From: a virus
Strand: one strand, 5' to 3'
IMG/VR virus record: IMGVR_UViG_3300017963_001551
Location: 1 to 30,386 of that record
DNA: 30,386 nt
The notes beneath the pieces were generated by a model. That model was given only the letters and a program-made list of their open reading frames with translations, searched no databases and was not told the DNA's origin. Positions 20,552-30,386 of the stretch are shown here, in pieces; the first letter of the stretch is position 1, and each line of letters begins with the position of its first letter. The translations under genes were made by a program, and so were the position numbers.

Positions 20552-20899
20552 TTATGTATTATCTGGTTGATTAGTCAAGTTTTCTCTTAATTTTTTTCTC
20601 GCTTCCTGTATTGAGGCTCTAGCTTTGTGCCGGGATACCTCAAGCTCTTTGGCTATTCGTCTCTCTGAATAGTTCATTATGTACTTGCCAGCCAATGCGT
20701 CCCTCAAGACACCTTCAAGAGATATTATTTCCTCGTTTAACCGCCATACCCTGCGATTGGGCCAATAGTTAGGCACGTATATTGTGGTAGCCCTAACAGT
20801 CACCTCCTTACTCCATGCGGGCTGTAGAGAGATTTCGGCCTCTTTTAGTATGGATTGTGCCCACTCTCTCAAAAGTGCATCAAGCTCCGAATCCCGCAC
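20552..20899 (-). CDS. HTH DNA-binding protein, possible late regulator
   Basis: About 115 aa. Start placed at GTG 20899 because AAGGAG sits 7 nt before it; a TTG at 20902 is the alternative. The C-terminal third, NYSERRIAKELEVSRHKARA then SIQEARKKLRENL, is a helix-turn-helix of sigma-70-region-4-like form. Small HTH proteins directly before terminase genes are often late-gene activators or antiterminators in phages, and this one has no packaging motif. The start overlaps the end of the cytidylyltransferase gene. No family name can be given; the regulatory role is inferred from HTH and position. Confidence 0.75.
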   Translation of the reverse strand: MRDSELDALLREWAQSILKEAEISLQPAWSKEVTVRATTIYVPNYWPNRRVWRLNEEIISLEGVLRDALAGKYIMNYSERRIAKELEVSRHKARASIQEARKKLRENLTNQPDNT

Positions 20900-21530
20900 C
20901 AATTATCTCCTTGAGTGTTGGAGGTTTCCCTTTGTAGTACTCATAAATAGCTTGGATCGCTTTTAGTTGCTCCGGGTAGTCCACAGTAAAACTAAGAGTA
21001 TCATCTAGCCCGCCTGGAACCTCTAATATTGTCGGCAAGGTCTGTAGATCGTACGTCATATACTCCGTGTCTATGCTGGTTCCATCGGCCTTTAGGTCAT
21101 CGTGCAGGCTTCTGAGCGCTTCAGTCTTGACTATCTCGCACTTGGTTCCTGCTGGCATATCGACAGCCCTGGTATAGTCTGGGTTTACGCTTAGGTGTTC
21201 CTCTACCATTTTTAGCATCATATCCGGGTCTGTCAGCGGGTTGTCTCCTGTTACTCTGATGATGTTTGCAGCCTGGTGCTTGTCGGCTACAGCCAGGAAT
21301 CGCTCCATTACATCATTTTCTGAGCCCTGATAAACCTCTATCCCTGCCATTCTACAGGCGTCTGCCAGAACACGGTCATCCTTATGGGTAGACGTGCAAA
21401 GTACGGCCTTTAATCCTGTTGGCGCTAGTCTGTCGAAAAGTCTCAATATTAGCTGTTTGCCATATAGGTTTGCCAATGCCTTGCCGGGGCATCGCTTAGA
21501 CTTCATTCTCGCTGCGACACAGATAATCAT
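20880..21530 (-). CDS. SpsF/NeuA-like cytidylyltransferase
   Basis: The protein is 216 aa. ARMKSKRCPGKALANLYGKQ (7-26) is the CTP-binding loop of the CMP-sugar synthetase family (R-x-x-S-x-R-x-P-x-K), and RVTGDNPLTDPDM (92-104) is the second motif with the metal-binding Asp. These enzymes link CMP to acids such as KDO, sialic or legionaminic acid. SpsF-like members are shorter than NeuA, in keeping with this size. The start overlaps the stop of the mini-NeuB gene (ATGA), a pairing also seen in sps clusters. Activation of a nonulosonate made by NeuB is a sound inference, but the substrate is untested. Confidence 0.85.
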   Translation of the reverse strand: MIICVAARMKSKRCPGKALANLYGKQLILRLFDRLAPTGLKAVLCTSTHKDDRVLADACRMAGIEVYQGSENDVMERFLAVADKHQAANIIRVTGDNPLTDPDMMLKMVEEHLSVNPDYTRAVDMPAGTKCEIVKTEALRSLHDDLKADGTSIDTEYMTYDLQTLPTILEVPGGLDDTLSFTVDYPEQLKAIQAIYEYYKGKPPTLKEIIGAGFGA

Positions 21531-22123: not shown

Positions 22124-22229
22124 CTGTCCTCTCCTTTTTGGGCTTACTGGTACCAAAGGCCTTCTCCCAGTTCGATCTAATCTGATCCTCTGGAACCTGC
22201 GCGGGCCTCCTATTGTCTCCCTTGCTCAT
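22041..22229 (-). CDS. Small phage protein of NWEKAFG type (62 aa)
   Basis: Start at ATG 22229, whose ATGA overlaps the radical SAM stop; an upstream start would add 8 residues within that gene. It begins MSKGDNRRPAQVPEDQIRSN then WEKAFG. The pattern of a short basic lead, then Asn-Trp-x-x-hydrophobic-Phe-Gly, is common in small phage proteins. The C-terminus is Arg/Gly/Asp-rich and overlaps the mini-NeuB start by 83 nt in another frame. Function is unknown. It separates the radical SAM gene from the NeuB-like gene and may be an original phage gene into which the sugar cassette was placed. Confidence 0.68.
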   Translation of the reverse strand: MSKGDNRRPAQVPEDQIRSNWEKAFGTSKPKKERTDDDDNRRDSQRSHGKPGSVPGANKGGV

Positions 22230-23077
22230 TTGTAGCTTGCCCCTACCTGGCAATCATCACAAGGAAATCCTCTAGTAGGATCTTCGGCCATCCGTCTTAG
22301 AGATGCCATACGCTCACCATTCCAAATATCAATTAATGGGCTCTTGTTATAGTCGCCAATGGGATACTCGTTATTCCAGTTGCCACAGCAACCAAACACT
22401 GTGCCGTCCCACGCAACAACCAGCCGCTGAAACGGCTGTGGGCACTTCTTCCGCTTTGTCTTGTTAAGCTGTCTCATGGGCCTGAAAGAATAGCTATCGG
22501 CCTTAAATACCCTCTTTAGCATGTCTATTTCTCGCTCATTCGAGGCTTGTACGGTCATTTGTACAATAGTTTCAGGCTTGTTGGTTTTGTGGTAATTCAA
22601 GAATTCCATGTTATTTACTAGCTTATTGAAGTCACCCTTTACCCTAATGGCTTCGTATGTTTCCTTGGTGCCTCCATCAATAGACACAATCAGCTTATCT
22701 AAGCCTGAATCAATCAGCTCCTTGATTCTGTGCTTTGAAAACGAGGTGAAGTTAGTGTTTATCATTATTTCAGTATATTTTAACTTCTTTGCCAGCTTGA
22801 TCATTGGAATCAGGTGTTTGCTCAAGCCCGGTTCACCGCGAAAGTTCAACTTGATTGATTTTGCGCCGTTAGCTCTAGCCTCTTTAATGGCTTTCTCTGC
22901 CATGCTTCTTGGCATCATGCCCTGCATGGAGTCGTCAAAAGACCCATCACCGAAAGGACACATGGTGCATGCTAGCTGACATTTCCCCGCTAATTCGATA
23001 TCAATATGCACAGGGAACCTTCGCTTGTAGAAAGGAGATATATTGAATAAGAATCGATACCACCAATACTTAATCAT
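22226..23077 (-). CDS. Radical SAM protein with SPASM-like C-terminus
   Basis: Start chosen at ATG 23077, which overlaps the epimerase stop (ATGATTAA) and has TGGAGTGG upstream. The protein is about 283 aa. CQLACTMC gives the 4Fe-4S CxxxCxxC motif (Cys33, Cys37, Cys40), and KSIKLNFRGEPG (near 72-83) is the SAM-binding GE region. The C-terminus CPQPFQRLVVAWDGTVFGCC and the later CDDC pair form a SPASM-type domain with extra iron-sulfur ligands. SPASM radical SAM enzymes modify peptides, proteins or sugars. In this operon it lies between sugar genes, so a role on the sugar or its acceptor is inferred. Substrate unknown. Confidence 0.88.
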   Translation of the reverse strand: MIKYWWYRFLFNISPFYKRRFPVHIDIELAGKCQLACTMCPFGDGSFDDSMQGMMPRSMAEKAIKEARANGAKSIKLNFRGEPGLSKHLIPMIKLAKKLKYTEIMINTNFTSFSKHRIKELIDSGLDKLIVSIDGGTKETYEAIRVKGDFNKLVNNMEFLNYHKTNKPETIVQMTVQASNEREIDMLKRVFKADSYSFRPMRQLNKTKRKKCPQPFQRLVVAWDGTVFGCCGNWNNEYPIGDYNKSPLIDIWNGERMASLRRMAEDPTRGFPCDDCQVGASYK

Positions 23078-23849
23078 TGAACCACTCCACTGTTTGATCC
23101 AGACCATCCCATAGCCCTATCTTGGGCTCCCATCCCAAATTCTGCATTGTCCTGGTAATATCTACAGGGTTAGACCTTACATCACCCTTTGATGGAGGGT
23201 TATGTGCAACCCTCTTGCCCGCCTTCTTTGCTATTGAATACGCCACTTGATTGATCGAGGTTTGAATCCCGGTGGCCACGTTTAAAACTCCGGTAATATC
23301 TGAATCTATCGCTAAATCTATAGCGTCCACGACATCATAAACATGGATAAAATCTCTGGTCTGATACCCATCGCCATTTACCACGATCTCCGGTGATTTG
23401 ATCATTGAAGTAACTACTGAGGTCTTGTTTTCAGAATGTGGCCCATAAACGTTTGAGAACCTCAATGAAAGGGTTCGGATATCAAAAGCTTCCTTGTAAG
23501 CAGCCATATAAGCCTCGCCACCTGCCTTCCCTGCTGCATAGGGTGACGTTATCTTGTTGACGCTGCCGCTTGATGCGTAAATCACCCTGCCTACCCCTGT
23601 TCGCCTTGCGGCCTCTAATACGTTTATAGTACCCAAAGCGCCATGAGAGAAATCATGAATAGGATCATCAATAGACTGAGGAACGCCAGGGCTAGCCGCC
23701 AGATGGATAATGCACTCATGACCCATAACAGAATCACATAAATCCTCTAAACTCCTGATGTCATCGCCATTCAAAATGTCGTATGAAACCCCGCCGTAGC
23801 GCTCAATAAAATTAGTCCCTATAAACCCGTCTCCGCCTGTAATTACCAT
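23070..23849 (-). CDS. NAD-dependent sugar epimerase/dehydratase (extended SDR)
   Basis: The protein is 259 aa. TGGDGFIGTN (4-13) is the Rossmann G-x-x-G-x-x-G NAD motif, YASSGSV (91-97) holds the catalytic Ser, and SPYAAGKAGGEAYM (102-115) holds Tyr104 and Lys108. RFSNVYGP (about 128-136) and QTRDFIHVYDVVDAI are the usual UDP-sugar SDR blocks. It is short for a UDP-glucose 4-epimerase (about 310-340), and the N-terminal strand is trimmed. The start overlaps the SQD1-like stop by 7 nt. It probably works on a nucleotide sugar in the same pathway, but 4-epimerase, dehydratase or reductase cannot be separated here. Confidence 0.86.
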   Translation of the reverse strand: MVITGGDGFIGTNFIERYGGVSYDILNGDDIRSLEDLCDSVMGHECIIHLAASPGVPQSIDDPIHDFSHGALGTINVLEAARRTGVGRVIYASSGSVNKITSPYAAGKAGGEAYMAAYKEAFDIRTLSLRFSNVYGPHSENKTSVVTSMIKSPEIVVNGDGYQTRDFIHVYDVVDAIDLAIDSDITGVLNVATGIQTSINQVAYSIAKKAGKRVAHNPPSKGDVRSNPVDITRTMQNLGWEPKIGLWDGLDQTVEWFND

Positions 23850-24931
23850 TTTACCCTCGGCATAATTTGGTCGTTAACAATCTCGCCCTTGAACTCGGAC
23901 ACGTATTCAAGCATGGATTTAATATCCTCGCGCCTCAAGTAGTGCGGCTCTAATCCCATGTTCATCAGGGAGTCATTTTTAACATTATAATAGTGGTCTT
24001 CTTTTTCTTTCCGAGGATTTTGTATGTGGTCAATCTTGACATCAAGCCCCGAATCATTACCCACCTCATAAATAAGGTTGGCTATCTGGTTGATAGACCA
24101 AGACTCTGTGAATTGATTAAACACCCTAAACTCCCCCTCTCCGGCCGGGTTTTCAATGGCCAACCGAATACACTTTAATGTGTCCCTGAGATTTAATATG
24201 CCTCGGGTTTGGTTGCCTTTCCCATACACTGTTAGTGGATGCCCCGCCACTGCTTGTACAATAAACCGATTCAGGGCAGTGCCAAAAACGTCATCATAGG
24301 TAAACCGGGGTCGAACATCGTCTGATTCATGCCCCCATACAAATCCTTGGTTTAAGTCCGTAACCCGTAACCCCCACACTCGCGAAGCGAAGGCCAAAGC
24401 ATCTGAATCATGGACCTTTGATAGGTGGTATATACTGAAGGGGGATTTTGGATATAGCATTCTATCCGTTCTGCCGTTATGCGTAACATCAAGATACCCC
24501 TCTTCGATATCAATATTGGGTGTACCATACTCTCCGAGAGTCCCTAGCTTTATTAGGTGCGTTTTAGGTGAGAATTCTTTTAGGGCATAAATAATATTTA
24601 GGTTCCCCTTGATATTATTCATAATGGTTTTCATGCCCTGCTTGCGATCAGCCATTGAATAAGGGGCTGAGGGGATCTCGGCATAATTAATAATTACGTC
24701 TGGCTGAATACGCTTGACTAAGTGGCTGATGCTCTCCCAGTTTGCAACATCAATAAATACGGGATCAAGTTCGTTTAACTCTACGTCACTATGCAGATAG
24801 TGAATATCATTGCTAACAAGCAAATCCCGCTTTAAAAGGTTGTCTACCGCGACTACAGTATGATCTCTCGCTAAATCAATACATGTAGGCAACCCAAGAT
24901 ATCCATCTGCGCCTAATACAATAATCTTCAT
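23843..24931 (-). CDS. sqdB: UDP-sulfoquinovose synthase homologue
   Basis: The protein is 362 aa. The SQD1/SqdB pattern is striking: GADGYLG (7-13), IPSAPYSM (86-93), KLGTLGEYGTPNIDIEEGYL (128-147), THNGRTD (150-156), YHLSKVHDS (168-176), TDLNQGFVWG (191-200), HPLTVYGKGNQTRG (231-244), GEFRVFNQFTE and MGLEPHYL. Thr131, Tyr168 and Lys172 fall 14 residues before Thr145, Tyr182 and Lys186 of plant SQD1, so the catalytic set is kept. The enzyme makes UDP-sulfoquinovose from UDP-glucose and sulfite. AAGGAGGACAA lies right before the ATG, a strong site. No sulfoquinovosyltransferase of the lipid type is seen in the window. Confidence 0.92.
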   Translation of the reverse strand: MKIIVLGADGYLGLPTCIDLARDHTVVAVDNLLKRDLLVSNDIHYLHSDVELNELDPVFIDVANWESISHLVKRIQPDVIINYAEIPSAPYSMADRKQGMKTIMNNIKGNLNIIYALKEFSPKTHLIKLGTLGEYGTPNIDIEEGYLDVTHNGRTDRMLYPKSPFSIYHLSKVHDSDALAFASRVWGLRVTDLNQGFVWGHESDDVRPRFTYDDVFGTALNRFIVQAVAGHPLTVYGKGNQTRGILNLRDTLKCIRLAIENPAGEGEFRVFNQFTESWSINQIANLIYEVGNDSGLDVKIDHIQNPRKEKEDHYYNVKNDSLMNMGLEPHYLRREDIKSMLEYVSEFKGEIVNDQIMPRVKW

Positions 24932-26457: not shown

Positions 26458-26784
26458 CTAGTCATAATAAATACCTTCTACGACTGTTCGCTCCCTGAAC
26501 ACCCGCCAAAACTCAGCCTCTTGTTCTGGTGTGAAGGGCCTTTCTTCCTGTCCTTCGTACTGGCCTATAAATTCCTTGAAGACGTGGTAAACCTGTAATA
26601 CTGAGCCCAAATCAAGAAATCCATCAACCACTTTCCCCGCAGGAAGTTGAGGGTGCTGGCCCGTCATTACTGACAATCTTCGAACTGATTTAGCCCAATA
26701 GGGATATGTGCCCCGTTTAACCTTGGTTTTGCTTAAATTCCTGTTTCGAGCAAAGAATATGTTCTTAACGTTTTCGTTTCTCAT
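26458..26784 (-). CDS. Hypothetical early-region protein (108 aa)
   Basis: The protein is 108 aa and begins MRNENVKNIFFARNRNLSKT. AAAAGGAGGGCAC lies directly before the ATG, a strong site. It is mixed alpha/beta with a basic N-terminus and an acidic C-terminus (PEQEAEFWRVFRE). It has no cysteine motif, signal peptide or membrane segment, unlike its neighbours. No domain is recognised. It is the first gene after the gene-free 400-bp region to its right. Confidence 0.68.
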   Translation of the reverse strand: MRNENVKNIFFARNRNLSKTKVKRGTYPYWAKSVRRLSVMTGQHPQLPAGKVVDGFLDLGSVLQVYHVFKEFIGQYEGQEERPFTPEQEAEFWRVFRERTVVEGIYYD

Positions 26785-27191
26785 GTGCCCTCCTTTTCCA
26801 TAAACATAAAACAGTTAGGCAAGTAAATCTAATTGAATATTTTTATAGGGTATTAGCTGAGGTTATGATTGCTCTCTCCTTTCTCCAGACAATAGAAAAC
26901 CTAACCCGTGGCATATCGGATATTTCGCCGCCAAGTGGTGTTTATGGCCAATACTCCGGCACAGACCGCTTTTTATGGTAGCTGGCTTGGCACCAGTTTT
27001 ACCGGCTCGGGTTGCACTCTTTCGAGTGGCCGTGTTTACTCTTCCACGACTTCAAGCCCACGAATCAGTTCACATTGTCTGATCCCCTGGATGTTATCCA
27101 GACTCAGGAAATTCGGTTCCCCTTCCCTATTCTTGATTACGCTTAGGCTCAAAAAAGGCCAGCAGATAGTTAGGGTTATCAGCCCATAGAG
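26785..27191 (-). other. 407-bp gene-free stretch with several GC-rich hairpins on the minus strand
   Basis: No convincing ORF occurs here. On the minus strand the following pair: CGAAT (27115-27111) with ATTCG (27065-27061); CTGGAT-AAC-ATCCAG (27101-27087); GGCTTG (27058-27053) with CGAGCC (27009-27004), which encloses CGTG/CACG (27048-27031) and CACTC-GAAA-GAGTG (27028-27015), a GNRA-capped stem. A good Shine-Dalgarno, AAAGGAGAGAG near 26880, has no usable start codon after it. The stretch may hold a structured RNA or the trace of a lost gene. A T6 run near 27155 could end transcripts from the 51-aa gene. Confidence 0.4.
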
Positions 27192-27347
27192 TTAGGGCTG
27201 GTCTACTGTGTCTAATGCGGCCTGCAATACCTGCTTCATTGATGCCCAGCTTGACACATAGGCATCAATATCAGCCACGCCAGTAAAAATACCAACGTCC
27301 ACCGCTTTCTTCATTGCGGCTATTAGCATCTCTTCTGTGACTTCCAT
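27192..27347 (-). CDS. Small phage protein (51 aa)
   Basis: The protein is 51 aa and reads MEVTEEMLIAAMKKAVDVGI and on. Start at ATG 27347 with TTGGAGACAG upstream; an open frame reaching further right would run through a terminator hairpin and is not credible. It is helical with an acidic start, like many short phage proteins of the EVTEEM type. It stands directly behind a structured leader with a terminator (27361-27431), so its expression may depend on readthrough. Function unknown. Confidence 0.68.
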   Translation of the reverse strand: MEVTEEMLIAAMKKAVDVGIFTGVADIDAYVSSWASMKQVLQAALDTVDQP

Positions 27348-27360
27348 TTTCTGTCTCCAA

Positions 27361-27481
27361 TAAAAAAAGCCCCTAAAGTAGTGGTGTTCGACTGAGGTAC
27401 ACAGGGAACCTCCACCACTCTTTAAGAGCCTTTTAATCCTATGTGTTTTGTGGTCAGGCCGAGTCGAAACGGTTATCTGAC
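27361..27481 (-). ncRNA. Structured leader or small RNA ending in a terminator hairpin
   Basis: From about 27481 the minus strand shows a hairpin GGTCAG/CTGACC (27482-27477, 27457-27452). A long terminator stem follows: CTTTAAGAG-side arm AAAG+AGTGGTG (27423-27413) with CACCACT+A+CTTT (27386-27375), inner stem GAGGT/ACCTC, then T7 (27368-27362). The first hairpin's loop holds TTCGACT, which complements AGTCGAA in a bulge of the terminator stem (27393-27387), and ACACA (27446-27442) complements TGTGT in the terminator loop (27403-27399). A TATAAT at 27493-27488 puts the start at the first hairpin. Either an attenuator for the 51-aa gene or a free RNA of about 120 nt. Confidence 0.65.
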
Positions 27482-27487
27482 CGTTCA

Positions 27488-27515
27488 ATTATAATACATC
27501 TGCGCTATCATGCAA
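27488..27515 (-). promoter_or_regulatory. Sigma70-like promoter for the structured leader
   Basis: On the minus strand a perfect -10 TATAAT occupies 27493-27488. TTGCAT stands 16 bp upstream as a weak -35. The predicted start, 6-8 nt downstream, coincides with the first base of the GGTCAG hairpin. Confidence 0.55.
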
Positions 27516-27552
27516 CCCTAGGGTGAGAAGCTCCTCTGTTGTTTTGCCAAAG

Positions 27553-27765
27553 CTACACGCCTCTAGGGGAAACCTCAAGGGGCGTATCTACTTCCACGTC
27601 AACAACCCTGTAAATCCAAGGAGAACCGCCTGCCGAACAATTTTCAGCGTATCGCTCAGCAACACTCCTGCTATCGAATGCAGCCATATTTCTCCATCCG
27701 CCCATGCTTCCGTTTTCACGAGTGTACTGAACCAAGGCAACCAATTCTTCAAATGCGTTATCCAT
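27553..27765 (-). CDS. Small phage protein (70 aa)
   Basis: The protein is 70 aa and begins MDNAFEELVALVQYTRENGS. AAAGGAGAAATGAG precedes the ATG, a good site. The middle is GGWRNMAAFDSRSVAERYAE, and the C-terminal part YRVVDVEVDTPLEV is strand-like. This alpha-then-beta layout is typical of small phage proteins of unknown role. No Cys motif or membrane segment is seen. Confidence 0.7.
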   Translation of the reverse strand: MDNAFEELVALVQYTRENGSMGGWRNMAAFDSRSVAERYAENCSAGGSPWIYRVVDVEVDTPLEVSPRGV

Positions 27766-27814
27766 CTCATTTCTCCTTTAGTCACTTATGGGGCAACCAA
27801 GCCCTGTGATTAAT

Positions 27815-27982
27815 TCAACCCTCTTCTGCTAAATCTAGGTAACTTTTAGCTACCAAAAACAAGAAAATCCCAAGTGCCCCACTGGGGACTAACAATCCAA
27901 ACAGTAGAGAGGCTATAGCAAAAATCAGGAAAAACTTATCTGATCTGTGATAACGCCTAAGAATCTCTTTCCATTCCATCAT
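27815..27982 (-). CDS. Small membrane protein (55 aa)
   Basis: A 55-aa ORF MMEWKEILRRYHRSDKFFLI and on, with AAGGAGAAG directly before the ATG at 27982 (a second ATG follows at 27979). Residues 17-45 are strongly hydrophobic (FFLIFAIASLLFGLLV, then GALGIFLFLVA), enough for one long or two short membrane segments, with a basic N-terminus and an acidic tail. It could be an inner-membrane protein, for example an accessory or holin-like protein, but holin identity cannot be claimed. Confidence 0.72.
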   Translation of the reverse strand: MMEWKEILRRYHRSDKFFLIFAIASLLFGLLVPSGALGIFLFLVAKSYLDLAEEG

Positions 27983-28010
27983 CTTCTCCTTGTCAGTCTA
28001 TTGGGGTTGA

Positions 28011-28847
28011 TTAATCAGCAAACTTGGTGTTTTCATCAATTTGAGAGTTATCAGTTACCTTTATTTTTTCACCATCTTTAGGTTTTATTCTGATAAATAT
28101 CTTATCAAACCCAACTACGGGGAAAAGGTAATCAGAGTCTTCGCTTTCTAAAAACTCACCGTCCCATTTCCACGTTGAATCCTTTGCTTTTATCTCTACC
28201 CCTGGTCTTAGGCTAGACAGAAAAACTGCTCGACCAACATAGTCGATTTCTTCTAACCGTTGACTCTCTTCTGGGTATCGCTTGATAAACGAATTGAATA
28301 TATCTGGAAAATATATTTTTAAATCTTGAAGAAATTTAGGGACAACATCTTTTTGATATGACTTTATTTCCCCACCCATCATTGCTTCTGGCCTAAAGTT
28401 GACAATATCTAAGATTAACTCATCTGTGAACAGGTGAATCGGGATAAATGGAGAACCAGAAACGAAAAGGCTGGAATGCCTGTTAAGTGGCAGCTTCTTA
28501 TTCATATCCATATGGGCATATGGCAGGAATATGCAATCGCCAATTTTCGCTATTCTTCTTGGCGCAGTTTTTAACTTGAAAAGCGCGTGTTTATGCTCTT
28601 TCTTTTTGCCTGATATCCATGAAGAATATTTTCTGGCTCTTTGTGTAAAACCATCCTCTCTTGATACTTTACCAAACCGACAAGATGGGCCAATGAAATT
28701 GGCCACATTTATACATGTCTTTTCTTTATAGAAGTCGCAGCTATCTTTCTGCGAGCAAAAGAATTTCCTGCATTCCGCCCTATCTTTTTGATGCTCCTTA
28801 AAGATTGATCTGTGCGGCTCATAAATTGAAACATTAATTAATTCCAT
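28011..28847 (-). CDS. Hypothetical Cys-rich early protein (278 aa)
   Basis: About 278 aa; start at ATG 28847, which overlaps the stop of the 50-aa gene (TGATG) and has AAGGAG upstream. Residues 15-60 hold five cysteines (in CRKFFC, SCDFYKEKTC and SCRF), a likely metal-binding head. The rest is mixed alpha/beta with basic patches such as KKKEHKH. No signal peptide or transmembrane segment occurs. Compared with its neighbours it is large for this region. I do not recognise a family; a host-takeover protein is possible by position only. Confidence 0.72.
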   Translation of the reverse strand: MELINVSIYEPHRSIFKEHQKDRAECRKFFCSQKDSCDFYKEKTCINVANFIGPSCRFGKVSREDGFTQRARKYSSWISGKKKEHKHALFKLKTAPRRIAKIGDCIFLPYAHMDMNKKLPLNRHSSLFVSGSPFIPIHLFTDELILDIVNFRPEAMMGGEIKSYQKDVVPKFLQDLKIYFPDIFNSFIKRYPEESQRLEEIDYVGRAVFLSSLRPGVEIKAKDSTWKWDGEFLESEDSDYLFPVVGFDKIFIRIKPKDGEKIKVTDNSQIDENTKFAD

Positions 28848-28999
28848 CACTTCTCTCCTTTTCTCAGTTTCCTCGCAAACGCCCGTAGGATCTCTGTATG
28901 CTCTTTTCTAGCCCATAGGTATACCCTACAGTACCCTTCTGACTTCATGCGTTTAACGTACCTGGCTGTACGCTCAGGGGCTGTTTTGTCTTTAGTCAT
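28847..28999 (-). CDS. Small basic phage protein (50 aa)
   Basis: A 50-aa ORF MTKDKTAPERTARYVKRMKS then EGYCRVYLWARKEHTEILRA. The ATG overlaps the stop of the 77-aa gene, and its stop overlaps the next start (TGATG). Small proteins of form K-x-x-E-R-x-x-R-Y-x-x-R-x-x-x-x-G are common in phages and plasmids and often bind nucleic acid. It is strongly basic. Function unknown. Confidence 0.7.
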   Translation of the reverse strand: MTKDKTAPERTARYVKRMKSEGYCRVYLWARKEHTEILRAFARKLRKGEK

Positions 29000-29305: not shown

Positions 29306-29334
29306 CTTTAAATATTGTTTATGGGTGGTATAAT
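29306..29334 (+). promoter_or_regulatory. Rightward extended -10 promoter
   Basis: TGGTATAAT (29326-29334) is a perfect extended -10 box (TGn plus TATAAT). The -35 is weak (CTTTAA or TTTAAA), which an extended -10 can offset. Start predicted at 29340-29341, just at the first helix of the RNA that follows. Confidence 0.75.
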
Positions 29335-29339
29335 GTACG

Positions 29340-29616
29340 AAGTCGCGCAGACTTAAACAGCGCTAGCCGACTGTAGGTGAAACTCGACGACAACGGAAGG
29401 CCTTTGGTGAGCCTTGGCAGCAAATTCCCGACGAGAAAACGCCGTAGACGTGCGGGGGAATGGGTAGATCGAAATGCTACCGCCGGAAGCATAACCGGCA
29501 TATCAAAAACAGACATAGTTTCCGATATAAAGGATTTCTTATGTCCAAAACCCTGCCTAGCAGGTATCCTGAATACAGGATGAATAATACGCCCCTCAAA
29601 TCGAGGGGCTTTTTTA
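29340..29616 (+). ncRNA. Unidentified structured non-coding RNA of about 276 nt
   Basis: No credible ORF fills this promoter-to-terminator unit. Helices found by eye: AAGTC (29340) with GACTT (29350), its loop GCGC matching GCGC at 29360, a pseudoknot; AAGGC/GCCTT (29397, 29411); ATTCCC/GGGAAT (29424, 29456); GGTAG/CTACC (29463, 29477); GCCGG/CCGGC (29482, 29495); GACATA/TATGTC (29512, 29540) with inner TCC/GGA; CCTGC/GCAGG (29552, 29560); TCCTG/CAGGA (29567, 29576); and the terminator stem. No tmRNA, RNase P, 6S or group I hallmark was recognised. It may act in trans or regulate the genes to the right. Identity unknown. Confidence 0.72.
29591..29616 (+). terminator. Rho-independent terminator of the structured RNA
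   Basis: GCCCCTC (29591-29597) pairs with GAGGGGC (29603-29609) over a 5-nt loop, followed by T6 (29610-29615) on the plus strand. A textbook strong terminator. Confidence 0.92.
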
Positions 29617-29696
29617 TTTCCCTACGCTACTTGCGTACATATAAATCCTACTTATGCCCTATCAAATCTTTTCATTAGACGCATCTTTTGTGCTTT

Positions 29697-29709: not shown

Positions 29710-29734
29710 ACAGAACACAACAAAGGAGAAAGGA

Positions 29735-30103
29735 ATGAGCAAGCCAGAAACAATTAAAATTGATGATGTTGAATATGTGCGAAGCGACAGCAACCAATTA
29801 GCTAGGCCTGTCGAGGGTTTGAAATATTGCGTTATTCGCACTTACTCGGCTGGAGTGCATATCGGCTTTGTTGAAGAATTCGGAACCAAGCAGCCACAAT
29901 ACGCCAAGCTCCTAAAATCTCGCCGATTACACTACTGGAATGACGCAGCCAGCTTATCTCAGGTAGCAATGGATGGCGTGGGCGAGACATCGCGCATAGC
30001 AATGGAATTACCAGAAATTGAACTAACCGATGTGATTGAAGTTATTCCCTGCTCTGAAGAAGCCGCCGAATTTTTCCAGAGGGCAAAAGCATGGAAAAAG
30101 TAA
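29735..30103 (+). CDS. DUF6948-like phage protein
   Basis: The protein is 122 aa and starts at an ATG with AAAGGAG upstream. The pattern TIKIDDVEYV (5-14), YCVIRTYSAGVHIGFVEEFG (31-50), then RRLHYWNDAASLSQVAMDGV (63-82), matches the small beta protein family DUF6948 found in phages. Its role is unknown. It is the first rightward gene after the structured RNA's terminator. Its last 13 bases overlap the start of the Gly-rich repeat ORF, a neighbour pairing I believe recurs in phages. The family call is from motif memory, not from a search. Confidence 0.75.
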   Translation: MSKPETIKIDDVEYVRSDSNQLARPVEGLKYCVIRTYSAGVHIGFVEEFGTKQPQYAKLLKSRRLHYWNDAASLSQVAMDGVGETSRIAMELPEIELTDVIEVIPCSEEAAEFFQRAKAWKK

Positions 30104-30351
30104 ATCTATGCAGTATGCGTAATTGCGAAACTGGTGGCTCTGGCGATGGCTCTGGCTATGGCTATGGCTATGGCTATGGCTATGGCTATGGCTCTGGCGA
30201 TGGCTATGGCTGTGGCTATGGCTCTGGCGATGGCTATGGCTATGGCTCTGGCGATGGCTCTGGCGATGGCTATGGCTCTGGCGATGGCTCTGGCTATGGC
30301 TCTGGCGATGGCTGTGGCTATGGCTCTGGCGATGGCTCTGGCTCTGGCTAA
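30091..30351 (+). CDS. Gly-Tyr/Ser/Asp dipeptide-repeat ORF
   Basis: The ORF has 86 codons. After MEKVNLCSMRNCETG it is only Gly alternating with Tyr, Ser, Asp or Cys (GSGDGSGYGYG and on) to the stop at 30351. The ATG overlaps the preceding stop; a later ATG at 30115 is the alternative. The DNA is a hexamer repeat, so all frames are long, and only this one keeps the Gly-rich peptide and a phage-like start. The product would be unfolded. Such ORFs are seen beside DUF6948-like genes in phages. Whether protein is made is uncertain. Confidence 0.6.
   Translation: MEKVNLCSMRNCETGGSGDGSGYGYGYGYGYGYGSGDGYGCGYGSGDGYGYGSGDGSGDGYGSGDGSGYGSGDGCGYGSGDGSGSG
30130..30350 (+). repeat. Hexanucleotide tandem repeat (GGC-TAT/TCT/GAT units)
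   Basis: About 36 imperfect copies of a 6-bp unit GGCTNT or GGCGAT run nearly to the end of the repeat ORF. Variation falls on the second codon (TAT, TCT, GAT, TGT), which suggests slip-strand expansion with selection or constraint on the Gly codon. Confidence 0.92.
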
Positions 30352-30359
30352 CTTGTATC
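30347..30359 (+). repeat. Direct repeat GCTAACTTGTATC, copy 2
   Basis: This copy overlaps the end of the repeat ORF and precedes a gap that runs off the window. It may mark the next rightward gene's control region. Confidence 0.55.
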
Positions 30360-30386
30360 CCGTATGGTGTATTTAACGCTAAGTTA

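Follow-up and report, generated by a model that had tools for sequence, protein, structure and literature searches.

A candidate phage leader RNA with complementarity to the bulge and loop of its own terminator

Layout of the locus and its closest described counterparts

Terminator-type leaders, such as attenuators and the expression platforms of riboswitches, comprise a promoter, a structured leader and an intrinsic terminator, followed by the ribosome-binding site of the controlled gene. The late leader of lambdoid phages (pR'-6S RNA-tR') consists of a short RNA that starts from one promoter and is ended at a terminator located before genes. Phages also encode the noncoding RNAs ROOL and GOLLD, which use kissing contacts and among which many GOLLD RNAs are reported to exceed 800 nt (PMC12286853).

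We analyzed a 30,386-base virus record (IMG/VR IMGVR_UViG_3300017963_001551), the whole of which is referred to here as the window. Its source is apparently a tailed phage, judging from a portal (PHROG 1216), a terminase large subunit and a major head protein that match known phage families; among the matches listed, podovirus-like phage portals resemble its portal at 31–38% identity. The minus strand carries nearly all of the clear genes in the window. On that strand a predicted leader RNA and its candidate −10 element occupy positions 27361–27493, flanked upstream by a 70-aa gene that ends at 27553 and downstream by a 51-aa gene that starts at 27347. The genes that precede them encode 50, 77, 279, 55 and 70 aa.

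The predicted leader resembles a terminator-type leader in that an intrinsic terminator is found directly before the ribosome-binding site of the 51-aa gene. It differs in that it displays no base-exclusive antiterminator above chance; what is matched by upstream sequence is instead the unpaired bulge and loop of the terminator. A search of Rfam recognized no known ligand-binding domain in the leader. Its layout, with a candidate promoter, a short RNA and a terminator before a gene, also resembles that of the lambdoid late leader, but the only Q-like protein among those scanned (20552–20902; PHROG 79, E 1.3e-4, a weak match) is encoded 6.5 kb downstream of the phage leader rather than just upstream of it. 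That protein could not be aligned to the annotated Q protein of the relative MW202481.1, and searches of PHROGs and/or Pfam with four of the five upstream neighbors (those of 77, 279, 55 and 70 aa) gave no match to Q. In common with GOLLD and ROOL, the leader would be a phage-encoded noncoding RNA that uses kissing contacts (in this case predicted ones); those RNAs are large and have Rfam profiles, whereas the leader is ∼120 nt in length and matches no Rfam family. Our literature search, which covered titles and abstract openings, brought up no report of a leader with complementarity to both the bulge and the loop of the terminator that ends it.

Several additional features of the window were recorded. 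A second candidate noncoding RNA on the plus strand (29307–29617) has a promoter-like site (TTTAAA-16-TATAAT, matching at 10 of 12 positions) and extends through ∼277 nt without a clear gene to a strong terminator (GCCCCTC-AAATC-GAGGGGC-TTTTTT). Its fold has a z-score of −3.06, its only Rfam match is sub-threshold (anti-hemB, 25.9 bits versus a threshold of 49.5), and it is similar to the phage leader at the 3' end. The 279-aa protein (28011–28850, minus strand), for which searches of Pfam and PHROGs gave no match, is related to proteins encoded on two contigs (∼110 and ∼106 kb; 36 and 38% identity) and, at 32% identity, to a protein of Bacillus phage Eldridge. Cargo genes, encoding a radical SAM protein and a nucleotide-sugar epimerase, are located before the terminase (22226–24931, minus strand), and the end of the record (30081–30386) contains 16 overlapping copies of short tandem repeats, with 12- and 18-bp spacing, that sit in a low-complexity reading frame. 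A region of ∼370 nt between two minus-strand genes (26785–27150) holds no convincing gene and has an ordinary fold (z −1.55). Within it, positions 26869–26886 on the minus strand (GGAGAAAGGAGAGAGCAA) are closely similar to the ribosome-binding site and start of a DUF6948 gene (assigned from Pfam) on the plus strand (GGAGAAAGGAATGAGCAA, 29725–29742) but lack an ATG, and are perhaps a decayed gene start.

A predicted short RNA ahead of a 51-aa gene

A preliminary description of this DNA had placed a perfect TATAAT before the RNA, a T7 tract at its end, and a 51-aa gene behind it, and all three elements are present. The TATAAT lies at 27493–27488 on the minus strand, which the preliminary description had left unstated, and is separated by a 16-nt spacer from a candidate −35 element identified by eye (TTGCAT, 27510–27515), which agrees with TTGACA at 3 of 6 positions. 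Considered alone the TATAAT is no evidence for a promoter, because 16 such sequences occur in the window as compared to 24.0 expected by chance, and it is missing from the calls of a simple promoter scan because its best −35 element has only those three matches. We infer that the RNA begins near 27484–27481, at a 5' hairpin (‘H1’; 27452–27482) that, in the minimum free energy (MFE) fold, is formed by GGUCAG/CUGACC and CCG/CGG stems and an 8-nt loop (−11.8 kcal/mol). The RNA would then be ∼120 nt in length, comprising H1, a 17-nt linker, a terminator hairpin and the T7 tract, transcribed as U7 (27368–27362). The terminator hairpin (27364–27434) has 27 basepairs and a predicted energy of −32.8 kcal/mol alone; the same fold contains a 7-nt bulge on the 3' side of its stem (27387–27393) and a 9-nt loop (27399–27407). 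The MFE of the leader (133 nt) is −44.4 kcal/mol, with a z-score of −4.38, and a 124-nt version gives a z-score of −3.96; in each case 0 of 200 shuffled sequences folded as well. A 9-codon reading frame that starts with GTG inside the terminator (27402 on) follows a GGAGG found by eye, which is paired in the stem.

The 51-aa gene (27192–27347, minus strand) starts with an ATG located 14 nt past the U7 tract, behind a GGAG ribosome-binding site (27355–27358, assigned by eye) that is only 3 nt past the same tract. The gene looks coding: its frame has a codon score of 0.332, which exceeds the 95th percentile (0.309) for 50-codon stretches read in frame from the clear genes of the window, and the other two frames score −0.149 and −0.049. 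Extension of the gene in frame through the leader (to a TTG at 27488) was considered and rejected, with a codon score of −0.055. A second terminator-like hairpin followed by T6 is positioned directly after the gene (approximately 27151–27205; −22.3 kcal/mol at 27156). For the minus strand, the promoter scan listed nothing promoter-like from the terminator to the start codon, and because the gene starts so close behind the U run with no evident promoter of its own, its expression probably depends on transcripts that read through the terminator. The encoded protein is predicted to contain two helices; it has no match in Pfam or PHROGs and no relative in the viral and genome collections searched, and comparison of its predicted fold with BFVD gave no match at E 0.001.

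The same elements could be viewed as a stand-alone phage small RNA of ∼120 nt, also raised in the preliminary description, that acts on host or phage RNAs while the 51-aa gene receives only leak-through transcription; internal contacts would either compact such an RNA (through the H1 loop and the terminator bulge) or hide its loops. An RNA that starts at the first hairpin, as predicted, and ends in U7 would form a complete unit, its fold is as strong as the z-score above indicates, and with its compact form, 5' hairpin and strong U7-tailed terminator it resembles terminator-ended small RNAs. It departs from those RNAs in that its exposed segments are matched within the same RNA. When four exposed segments were compared to 39 start regions of the window, the best pairings of none passed the 1% background and two equaled it. 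A pure small-RNA unit has no need of the real-looking, promoterless gene 14 nt downstream. We consider the small-RNA reading possible, if somewhat doubtful, and a close rival of the terminator-controlled leader proposed below.

Complementarity of the leader to the terminator bulge and loop

The central observation of the preliminary description, that the loop of the first hairpin complements a bulge in the terminator stem while a second segment complements the terminator loop in a nested arrangement, was borne out in each part by computed pairings. The first match (‘contact A’) joins UUCGACU in the H1 loop (27462–27468, minus strand) to AGUCGAA, which constitutes the whole of the 7-nt bulge (27387–27393), through seven Watson-Crick pairs (−7.5 kcal/mol). 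The second (‘contact B’) joins ACAUAGG in the linker (27438–27444) to CCUGUGU in the terminator loop (27399–27405), through seven pairs that include one G-U and engage 7 of the 9 loop bases (−9.3 kcal/mol). The order along the RNA is A...B...B'...A', and the borders of the matches coincide exactly with the edges of the bulge for contact A and nearly exactly with the loop for contact B.

This complementarity is far above chance and statistically exceptional. Permutation of the unpaired letters produced both contacts, each of at least 7, in 0 of 50,000 trials, while contact A alone appeared at a frequency of 1.2e-4 and any contact of at least 7 (allowing G-U pairs) at 0.025. Across 240 terminator-like sites drawn from the window and 26 loci, the leader ranked first by its two contacts (−16.8 kcal/mol versus −7.6 for the next site) and again by its best single contact (−9.3 versus −7.4 kcal/mol). 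Permuting the upstream letters 100 times at each of 256 sites gave energies no lower than −9.7 kcal/mol, with 0 of 25,600 permutations reaching −16.8. The two sets of sites follow one selection rule, the 240 being those of the larger set that contain a segment pair of at least 4 nt; six relative phages (portal 33–38% identity) served as controls, and the sites are partly dependent, since L004 and L005 overlap the species of the window and the rows of L010 and L014 are identical. The leader itself was chosen by eye out of 30 kb, and its margin over the controls is large.

These results bear on a rival account of the locus, in which the hairpin is an ordinary strong terminator of the upstream early operon and the matches are either accidental or a decayed, imperfect inverted repeat, and in both cases functionless. 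A possible remnant of such a repeat can be drawn (TTCGACT..ACACATAGGA versus TCCCTGTGT..AGTCGAA), nested contacts are what one decayed inverted repeat would be expected to leave, the selection by eye noted above weighs in the same direction, and no relatives were found that show conservation. Against an ordinary terminator stand the empty outcomes of both permutation controls, a rank of 1 among 240 sites, and matches that stop exactly at the bulge borders and nearly so at the loop, and we regard it as unlikely.

The search for relatives covered RNA families, nucleotide sequence and neighboring proteins. Rfam returned no match at the gathering threshold in the whole window and, up to E 5 across positions 26700–28100, only one sub-threshold snoRNA match that lies outside the leader; blastn against phages and plasmids found no relative of the leader. 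Exact patterns from the leader, searched in IMG/VR and GTDB, gave 0 matches for three of four patterns. The fourth, a 17-mer, matched five loci (L017–L021) that hold no covariance-model match and were taken as chance occurrences rather than as relatives. The covariance model (‘R1’) was built with a single sequence entered twice, which makes its empty answers weak; in 27 sources it recovered only the window, including one weak match (E 1.6) to this hairpin on the opposite strand, and it matched 0 of 15 records. The whole records containing the two distant relatives of the 279-aa protein (L002 and L003; 36 and 38% identity) hold no match to the model. Relatives sought via the 51-aa, 108-aa and 70-aa proteins were not found in these collections, and a search with the portal yielded two contigs from the species of the window (L004 and L005), both of which end short of the leader.

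Energetics, reach and a proposed mode of control

The preliminary description had also suggested that the RNA could switch between terminator and readthrough forms. The complementarity and nested order on which that suggestion was founded hold, but a classical base-exclusive switch does not follow from them. In the terminator fold the contact bases all remain unpaired, and the contacts therefore do not compete with the terminator for them. The best alternative fold containing both contacts has an energy of −21.1 kcal/mol as compared to −44.6 kcal/mol for the terminator fold, a deficit of 23.5 kcal/mol, and a full-length fold that contains only contact B reaches −25.2 kcal/mol; neither represents an antiterminator that shares bases with the terminator and approaches it in stability.

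In a classical attenuator, the linker would pair first with the loop region and displace the apical 5' strand of the terminator. Predicted folds of nascent prefixes agree with this to a point: linker-loop pairing is present in prefixes of 84–100 nt (mean 0.69–0.82), and the terminator takes over at ∼102 nt. In 589 of 2000 cases, however, permuted linkers equaled or improved upon the natural linker-loop pairing at 100 nt, so by this test the nascent pairing is no designed antiterminator. With the energy deficit of contact B at full length, and with neither a ligand domain nor a leader peptide identified and no match in Rfam, we find a base-exclusive attenuator very improbable.

The ability of the two contacts to form within one molecule was estimated from a rule of thumb of 2.8 Å per basepair and 6 Å per nucleotide. 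Contact A is reachable in cis beside a closed terminator, where the 17-nt linker needs to cover ∼62 Å to the bulge. Contact B is out of reach in cis while the stem is closed, with ∼3 nt of linker available to span 27 basepairs; if the lowest 6–7 pairs of the terminator are open, the estimated reach becomes 60–66 Å versus a stem of 56–59 Å, and the contact fits. The predicted cost of opening the lowest 6 or 7 pairs, 7.7–10.4 kcal/mol, is similar in size to the energy of contact B (−9.3 kcal/mol); these figures exclude the pseudoknot entropy, which would count against that contact.

The limit on contact B in cis would not apply in trans, which raises the prospect of a symmetric dimer, in which each RNA copy binds the bulge and loop of its partner with its H1 loop and linker. 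Among phage RNAs, ROOL and GOLLD are known to form homo-oligomers through kissing loops (PMC12286853). Against such a dimer, contact A is already possible in cis, and an unconstrained dimer fold opens H1 instead, for a gain of ∼9 kcal/mol (−98.3 versus 2 × −44.6 kcal/mol). We think this arrangement distinctly improbable.

We tentatively favor the reading that a phage gene is controlled here by a terminator in its 5' leader, and that the 5' part of this RNA would grip the terminator through tertiary contacts. RNA polymerase that starts at the TATAAT or arrives from the upstream operon would produce the ∼120-nt RNA and in most cases stop at the strong terminator. Expression of the 51-aa gene would be limited to readthrough transcripts, the 14 nt before its start leaving no room for a promoter. 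The H1 loop and linker, being matched to the bulge and loop, would grip the terminator tertiarily: contact A would fold H1 back on the bulge, beside a complete terminator, and contact B could form in cis only as long as the terminator stays open at its six or seven lowest pairs. If contact B formed with RNA polymerase still close by, the base of the hairpin would be held open and readthrough would be favored; if it did not form, the terminator would close. The direction of this effect, and the action of any trigger upon it, are likewise inferred from the predicted geometry. The more specific proposal that the bulge and loop are docks for the H1 loop and linker, that the second dock requires an open base, and that the contacts set readthrough mechanically is itself a speculative one, which we put forward with low confidence.

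Were the contacts found not to form, the locus would show that complementarity of very low probability may be present in a terminator and yet have no function, which would call for caution. If they do form, the leader would provide a ∼120-nt, easily synthesized intrinsic terminator that is controlled by a tertiary grip rather than by strand exchange, and mechanical docking, if true, would represent a form of transcription control distinct from that of base-exclusive attenuators.
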